Program-made: the position numbers and the translations under genes
Shown here: positions 14,526 through 16,496 of the stretch, in pieces
How positions within the stretch are numbered: position 1 is the first letter of the stretch
Layout of the letters: each line of letters starts with the position of its first letter
Origin: Gammaproteobacteria bacterium
GTDB taxonomy: Bacteria > Pseudomonadota > Gammaproteobacteria > Xanthomonadales > Wenzhouxiangellaceae
Assembly: GCA_003560975.1 (NCBI GenBank)
Contig: PWJA01000153.1
Coordinates: 1 to 55,202 of the forward strand
DNA length: 55,202 nt
Reading direction: 5' to 3'
Notes under the pieces: generated by a model
What the model was told of the DNA's origin: nothing
Databases searched by the model: none
Seen by the model: the letters and a program-made list of their open reading frames with translations, nothing else

Positions 14526-15965
14526 ATGACCGACACCTTTCTCTGGCACGACTATGAAACCTTCGGGGCCGACCCACGGCGAGACCGACCGGCGCAGTTC
14601 GCCGCGCTGCGCACCAATACCGATCTCGAACCGATCGAAGCGCCGCTGGTCGTCTACTGCCAGCCCGGCGAAGACATGCTGCCCCAGCCTGCCGCGTGCA
14701 TGATCACCGGGATCACACCCCAGCTGGCCCGCCAGCGCGGTGTTGTCGAGCATGAGTTCGCCGGAATGGTCTTCGAAGCAATGAGCCGCCCCGGCACCTG
14801 CAGCGTCGGCTACAACAATTTCCGCTTCGACGACGAAGTCAGCCGGCATCTGTTCTGGCGCAATTTCTTCGATCCCTACGCGCGCGAATTTGCCAACGGA
14901 AACAGCCGTTTTGACCTGATCGACCTGACCCGCCTCACGCGCGCCCTGCGTCCGGCCGGACTGCAGTGGCCGGATCGGGAAGACGGCACCCCCAGCTTTC
15001 GGCTCGAGGATCTGGCTCAGGCCAACGGCATGGACACCAGCCGCGCCCACGACGCCCTGGCCGACGTGGAAGCGACGCTGGGACTGGCCCGGCTGATCCG
15101 GTCGGCCCAGCCGCGCTTGTGGCAATGGGCGCTGGGACTGCGCGAGCGTCACCAGGTCGATCGCCTGCTGCGCTCGGGCCAGCCGTTGCTCCACGCCTCC
15201 GCCCGGCTGCCGGCCCAGTGGTGCGCCACCGCTCCCATACTGCCGCTCGGCCAACACCCGCAGATACGATCCCAGTGGGTGGTCTGGAATCTGCGTGAAA
15301 ACCCGGCCCCCTTTCTCGATCTGGACCCGGACGAGCTGGCCGATCTGTTGTGGACGCCGGCGGCCGATCTTCCGCCGGGCCACCAGCGTTTGCCGGTCAA
15401 GCTGATTCGCAGCAATCGCTGTCCAATGCTCTCCCCGATGAACGTCCTGGACGCTGGCGCGGCCGATCGCCTGGCTATGGACCCTGGCGACATCCGTCGA
15501 CATGCGCAACGCATCGACGAGGCTGCGGACTTTCGCGATCGATTGTTGCGGCTGTTCGGGCAGGATCGAGCGCGCTCGACGTCCGACCCCGAAATCGACT
15601 TGTACAGCGGCTTCACCCCGCGAACCGATCAAGCCGTGCGCGATCGTGTTCGAACCCTCACGGGCGCGGATCTGGCCGCGCTGGGCAAGCCTTTCAGCGA
15701 CGAACGGCTCAATACCCTGCTGTTTCGCTACCGCGCGCGCGGCTGGCCGGAAAGCCTGGATGAAACCGAAAAGGCGCGCTGGGCCGAGTACCGCCGACGC
15801 CGTCTCATCGACGACCCGGATCTGGCCAGCATCCGCCTGCACGACTACCAGGCCGAAGTCAGCCGGCTGCTGAGCGAGCATCCCGAAAAGCGCTCGCTGC
15901 TGGAGGACCTGATGCGCTGGCCCGATGAAATCGGCTGCCCGATGGCGGCGACGAACATTCAATGA
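14526..15965 (+). CDS. sbcB: Exodeoxyribonuclease I
   Basis: MTDTFLWHDYETFGADPRRDRPAQFAALRT...GYNNFRFDDEVSRHLFWRNFFDPYAREF; ExoI DEDDh nuclease motifs. Confidence 0.96.
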   Translation: MTDTFLWHDYETFGADPRRDRPAQFAALRTNTDLEPIEAPLVVYCQPGEDMLPQPAACMITGITPQLARQRGVVEHEFAGMVFEAMSRPGTCSVGYNNFRFDDEVSRHLFWRNFFDPYAREFANGNSRFDLIDLTRLTRALRPAGLQWPDREDGTPSFRLEDLAQANGMDTSRAHDALADVEATLGLARLIRSAQPRLWQWALGLRERHQVDRLLRSGQPLLHASARLPAQWCATAPILPLGQHPQIRSQWVVWNLRENPAPFLDLDPDELADLLWTPAADLPPGHQRLPVKLIRSNRCPMLSPMNVLDAGAADRLAMDPGDIRRHAQRIDEAADFRDRLLRLFGQDRARSTSDPEIDLYSGFTPRTDQAVRDRVRTLTGADLAALGKPFSDERLNTLLFRYRARGWPESLDETEKARWAEYRRRRLIDDPDLASIRLHDYQAEVSRLLSEHPEKRSLLEDLMRWPDEIGCPMAATNIQ

Positions 15966-16000: not shown

Positions 16001-16205
16001 TTATGCACAACTGCCTGATTCCGGAATTGACACTTTCATGACGCCGGCTATCGCTGCTCAATCCTCCCCTGTCAACTATCAAATATATGATTATATTGAC
16101 TTTTTAATTACTGTATAAAGAATGACCAATTGGGCGAAGGACTGATAACTCCCCTCTCCCCGCGGGCCTGTTCACAGGCTTATCCACAGCTTTTGTGGAT
16201 AAGCC
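16001..16205. other. AT-rich intergenic segment with DnaA-box-like sites (candidate DnaA-binding locus)
   Basis: TTATGCACA at 16001; AT-rich ctatcaaatatatgattatattgactttttaattactgtataaag at about 16075-16120; TTATCCACA at 16180 and its inverse TGTGGATAA at 16194 inside a perfect 12-bp-arm inverted repeat. Confidence 0.45.
16177..16205. repeat. Perfect inverted repeat with 12-bp arms containing two consensus DnaA boxes
   Basis: GGCTTATCCACA-GCTTT-TGTGGATAAGCC. Confidence 0.9.
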
Positions 16206-16223: not shown

Positions 16224-16496
16224 CTAGTGGGCCATGCCTTCCAGGGGCAGCTGCGCCGCCTCCGATCCATCGTTCCGTTCAAGGAGTTCGACCGTCGCGG
16301 AGCGACCACCGCGCAGCGATCGCTTGAGCAGGCGATCGCTGCGCGGTGAGACGAACTCGACAACGCTGCCGTCGTCGAAGCGCAACATCAGAACGACCGG
16401 GGGCTCGCCGGCCTTGCCGGGGCGCGCGATCACGCCGCTGATCGTTCGACCGACGATCTCCTCGCGAAACTGGCGCGGACTGGCAGTGGTTGTCAT
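16224..16496 (-). CDS. Hypothetical protein
   Basis: MTTTASPRQFREEIVGRTISGVIARPGKAGEPPVVLMLRFDDGSVVEFVSPRSDRLLKRSLRGGRSATVELLERND...; plausible folded protein, no family recognised. Confidence 0.6.
   Translation of the reverse strand: MTTTASPRQFREEIVGRTISGVIARPGKAGEPPVVLMLRFDDGSVVEFVSPRSDRLLKRSLRGGRSATVELLERNDGSEAAQLPLEGMAH
16307..16348. repeat. Perfect inverted repeat with 17-bp arms and 8-nt spacer inside a small CDS
   Basis: caccgcgcagcgatcgc-ttgagcag-gcgatcgctgcgcggtg. Confidence 0.9.

Follow-up and report, generated by a model that had tools for sequence, protein, structure and literature searches.

The window, by which we mean the whole 55,202-nucleotide stretch of DNA analysed here, contains two convergent reading frames, sbcB (exonuclease I; 14526-15965, plus strand; Pfam PF08411 and PF00929) and a small conserved one of 90 amino acids, orf16224 (16224-16496, minus strand), for which a Pfam search gave no match. 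The element described below lies in the intergenic region that separates them, and synteny with these two flanks marks the sites that we call class A. A homologue of orf16224 adjoins the class A element in most of the class A genomes examined, other families of the order included. Inside this reading frame, near the element, a perfect inverted repeat with 17-bp arms was seen at 16307-16348 (CACCGCGCAGCGATCGC / GCGATCGCTGCGCGGTG). An Rfam scan of the window returned tRNAs only.

The whole element spans 16001-16202 and is read on the minus strand, from box I (16202) to a distal DnaA box (16001); offsets are counted from box I (offset 0). Box I (TTATCCACA, 16194-16202, minus strand) is opposed to box II (TTATCCACA, 16180-16188, plus strand, offset +14) across a 5-bp gap, and the palindrome at 16180-16202 reads TTATCCACA-N5-TGTGGATAA. 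As the first-pass annotation had recognized, both consensus boxes are enclosed in a perfect inverted repeat with 12-bp arms (16177-16205, GGCTTATCCACA...TGTGGATAAGCC). To the outlying box that it listed at 16001, which was also found, we add box III (CTGTTCACA, 16168-16176, plus strand, offset +26), which it had overlooked and which follows box II in the same direction after a 3-bp gap. The minus-strand reading of the core is TTATCCACA-N5-TGTGGATAA-N3-TGTGAACAG, with three DnaA boxes of which box I is opposed to II and III.

The cores of E. coli K-12 were read directly, giving TTATCCACT-N5-TGTGGATAA-N3-TGTGTATTA for DARS1 (bioD-uvrB) and TTATTCACC-N5-TGTGGATAG-N3-TGTGAAGAA for DARS2 (mutH-rppH region). 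The orientation of the boxes and the gaps of 5 and 3 bp are identical in the window core, and box III is weak there, as it is in E. coli. That DARS1 and DARS2 share one spacing, and that their box I runs opposite to the other two, was previously described (PMC5742627), and the opposed pair was reported to bring about the head-to-head DnaA contacts that lead to ADP release (PMC5742627; PMC8682772). The window element differs from DARS2 in its perfect palindromic boxes and its gene neighbours, and the relative chromosomal position of class A is also different.

The AT-rich tract noticed earlier between the boxes is real. It lies at about 16080-16120, where the GC content falls to a minimum of 16% per 50 bp compared to 65% for the window. 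An IHF-consensus-like motif was found at 16080-16092 (minus strand, AATCATATATTTG, offset +110, one mismatch), overlapped by another at 16077-16089 (plus strand, TATCAAATATATG, one mismatch), and a Fis-consensus-like motif at 16113-16127 (GGTCATTCTTTATAC, offset +75), which has one mismatch in the window copy and matches the consensus exactly in many relatives. The distal DnaA box (TTATGCACA, 16001-16009, plus strand, offset +193), described before as near-consensus and found here to be conserved in relatives, has the direction of boxes II and III, and the IHF motif stands about midway between it and the core. A second IHF-consensus match without mismatch overlaps this box (16008-16020, minus strand, AATCAGGCAGTTG) in class A only. 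In addition, class A contains conserved repeated GTCA motifs (for example CTGTCAAGAAAGTGTCAAA) 15-50 bp to the core side of the distal box, in place of which class B, described below, has a different conserved block, GCTAAGGGGCTGTTTCA, near that box.

E. coli DARS2 has one IHF motif on the minus strand at +93 and one on the plus strand at +109. The 3 bp between them agree with the separation of IBS1 and IBS2 given in the literature (PMC4245941). IBS2 at +109 coincides with the class A motif at +109/110, on the box III side, and the predicted IHF motif of the window thus stands in the regulatory flank as in DARS2. The Fis sites of DARS2 are in the same flank too (PMC4245941). However, the critical sites FBS2-3 lie beyond IHF in E. 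coli (core-IBS-FBS), whereas the Fis motif of the window lies between the core and IHF. We therefore call the element DARS2-like and claim no orthology with E. coli DARS2. DARS1 functions without IHF and Fis (PMC5742627), and a search of its flank for an IHF motif found none. A distal box at the conserved places, +193 or +204, was searched for in both E. coli DARS1 and DARS2 and was found in neither.

The source draft genome comprises 3,075,123 bases in 286 contigs, and exact TTATCCACA occurs in it only 8 times. The window palindrome and a palindrome on contig C236, both with a spacer of 5 bp, account for two copies each; the dnaA-dnaN intergenic region contains another two, and the remaining two are single boxes (C222 at 2094, C248 at 1015). 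A palindrome search of the whole genome with gaps of 3-8 bases returned the window and C236 copies only, and exactly two cores of boxes I, II and III were found with up to 3 mismatches. Given four boxes on each strand of 3 Mb, chance would produce an exact inverted pair at a single fixed distance in about 5 of a million cases. The C236 core, which we assign to class B, lies between two genes that we take from their translations to be argS and a gamma-carbonic anhydrase-like gene, and this core too is accompanied by a copy of TTATGCACA, at a distance of about 180 bp and with the relative direction seen in class A. Genes for DnaA and IhfA are also present in the genome, as is one for a homologue of Fis with 36% identity across 72 residues. 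An Hda-like protein is encoded too, with a match below the NCBI curated cut-off.

The boxes are kept in relatives. The palindrome was present in 52 of 61 genomes (source genome included), with 1-3 copies apiece, and the spacer was 5 bp in every match although 3-8 were permitted. The resulting 74 sites were oriented solely by their AT-rich side, which was not possible in this way for three at contig ends. In about 70 of the 74 the TGTG of box III stands at +26 on the AT-rich side, and the mirror side is almost never box-like. A distal TTAT[GAT]CACA in the direction of box II was found at 182-196 in class A (34 sites) and at 201-207 in class B (23 sites). The IHF consensus is at +109/110 in class A and +119-122 in class B, and the Fis consensus at about +75 and +86, respectively. 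The parts of class B are all displaced by about 11 bp relative to class A, which is one helical turn and suggests a rotational phasing of the parts. These motif positions are held while the intervening bases are poorly conserved.

The search was extended to 369 sampled genomes of the class, and the exact palindrome was present in at least 157 of them and in at least 123 of 272 genera, while control matches occurred in two genomes only. These counts are lower bounds because degenerate cores such as those of E. coli escape an exact search. With spacers of 0-20 permitted, the spacer was 5 bp in nearly all matches listed, and the exceptions among them were box I/III pairs within the same core. A scan of named genomes gave at least 117 stretches, nearly all from Gamma- and Betaproteobacteria. 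Among the stretches listed, the IHF motif peaked at +120/121, where 52 of 116 had it compared to a background of 0.1% per position. The peak of the exact Fis motif was at +86 (27 of 117; background 0.02%), and that of the distal box was at +203-206 (31 of 113). After dereplication of the stretches listed to 93 loci, IHF was found in 50, Fis in 24 and the distal box in 27, compared to 2, 0 and 0 on the mirror side of the same loci and to means of 0.5, 0.06 and 0.03 (maxima 3, 1 and 1) after shuffling.

The flank motifs were absent at these offsets from about half of the named loci listed, including most of those from Pseudomonas and Legionella, which may represent other types of DARS or something else. 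The cores of several of these Pseudomonas and Legionella loci (L101, L119, L130, L140, L111, L145 and L148) have exact boxes I and II and the TGTG of box III, and these same loci showed no IHF motif at +120 and no priA nearby.

Where the flanking sequence was long enough, nearly every class A site is beside homologues of sbcB, orf16224 or both, and this synteny extends to two genomes from another family of the order. In the window's family, class B occupies the intergenic region of argS and the carbonic anhydrase gene. Elsewhere, many sites of class B geometry are directly upstream of priA, as in Stenotrophomonas, Xanthomonas, Lysobacter, Dyella, Cycloclasticus, Duganella and Collimonas among others, and at several of these priA is followed by argS. 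We infer that the argS site in the window's genus and these priA-side sites are one ancestral locus. In closed congeners class A is far from dnaA and class B near it: the distance of class B to dnaA was 97 kb in G018 and 92 kb in G027, and class A was removed from dnaA by about 0.83, 0.90 and 0.60 of the half-chromosome in G018, G027 and G026, respectively.

The AT-rich tract adjoining DnaA boxes had led to the proposal of an origin of replication. That the element is the chromosomal oriC, or a second origin, is contradicted by the results below and is highly improbable. Since dnaA is on another contig (C16), the earlier statement that it is missing from the neighbourhood was correct. The GC skew stays negative over nearly the whole window and does not switch at 16 kb. 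Along the dnaA contig of the same genome it is positive on both sides, for which reason the skew was sampled in a closed congener, G018 (3.84 Mb). There it switches beside dnaA at 3.79-3.84 Mb and again at about 1.8-2.0 Mb. Neither site is at a switch, class A being inside an arm at 1.598 Mb and class B likewise at 3.748 Mb. Moreover, the element exists in two copies per genome outside a dnaA/dnaN-type context, and the dnaA-dnaN intergenic region (C16, 7821-7853) has DnaA boxes of its own in the opposite arrangement, TGTGGATAA-N15-TTATCCACA, together with an AT-rich stretch. This region is likely the oriC.

A datA-like site, at which the boxes and an IHF bend would absorb DnaA or promote ATP hydrolysis, had also been suggested, and part of the structure agrees with it. 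In E. coli datA an IHF site lies between DnaA boxes of the same direction about 160-180 bp apart, and in the window IHF is likewise placed between boxes II/III and the distal box, with 167 bp separating box III from the distal box against 162 bp between datA boxes 2 and 3. The two sites also hold two among the very few consensus box pairs of the genome. However, the essential boxes of datA are all in one direction (PMC5742627) with one IHF site, and datA has no counterpart of the opposed boxes I and II, 5 bp apart, that are invariant here. The core thus contradicts datA while the distal arm is still datA-like, and plain titration would leave the 5- and 3-bp gaps and the IHF phase unfixed across such evolutionary distances. 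We regard a titration or inactivation site as unlikely. In B. subtilis, chromosomal clusters of DnaA boxes exist outside oriC, and their deletion causes early initiation, which was interpreted as control of the free DnaA level (PMC13220808). DARS is reported absent from that species.

It is very improbable that the element serves the flanking genes as a DnaA-regulated promoter or, as the first-pass annotation had also considered, as a terminator stem. A hairpin could form between the two convergent genes, but no T-run follows the stem; class B is near the promoters of argS or priA, but class A is between convergent genes and there is no promoter there to control. The full internal geometry is the same in the convergent context of class A and in the argS-carbonic anhydrase and priA-upstream contexts of class B, contrary to either role. 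A mobile or repetitive palindrome of the REP or MITE kind, with a chance likeness to DnaA boxes, would account for two genome copies with similar arms. We give it next to no probability: there are exactly two cores even when 3 mismatches are allowed, the loci are syntenic across families, and the sequence between the motifs diverges while their positions stay.

The DARS-like option, by contrast, is strongly supported by a geometry of boxes I, II and III equal to that of E. coli DARS1 and DARS2. Judged from its sequence, 16001-16202 probably represents a DARS2-type DnaA-reactivating sequence. The sequence-defined core places it among the DARS, and its ADP-release activity would be expected by analogy with E. 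coli. In the proposed mechanism, ADP-DnaA would dock head-to-head on boxes I and II, together with box III. IHF and Fis would bend the flank, and the flank with the DnaA on the distal box would meet the core complex, a contact upon which ADP would leave DnaA. The apo-DnaA would then depart and rebind ATP, and more ATP-DnaA would be available before the next initiation at the oriC between dnaA and dnaN.

DARS itself is known, the original paper reportedly being that of Fujimitsu et al. in 2009. DARS2-type cores were described as limited to E. coli-related gamma species (PMC4245941; PMC8682772). For the core at fixed gene neighbours in other Gamma- and Betaproteobacteria, we found no earlier report of DARS in the accessible literature, which largely excludes subscription papers, so these lineages may have been noticed before. 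The presence of the core, with phased IHF, Fis and distal-box positions, in Lysobacterales, Chromatiales, Methylococcales and Burkholderiales would mean that the recharging of DnaA from ADP to ATP is a general means of control in these lineages. More tentatively, and with somewhat less than even confidence, we suggest that this recharging could be an ancient general device of Beta- and Gammaproteobacteria, combining a DARS core with an IHF-bent loop and a distal box of the same direction (a DARS/datA hybrid arm). There would be two paralogous versions that differ by one helical turn: one near ori, with its ancestral place at priA, and one towards ter, at sbcB. If true, the two versions would tie DnaA recharging to two points of fork passage.

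Classes A and B, 11 bp apart and with or without the distal box, are natural variants for probing IHF bending in nucleotide exchange, and the sites supply exact deletion targets in many organisms. Among the named genomes, a core with an IHF motif at +120 was also seen in an actinobacterial MAG, Candidatus Planktophila lacus (L107), the contig of which is probably mis-binned proteobacterial sequence.
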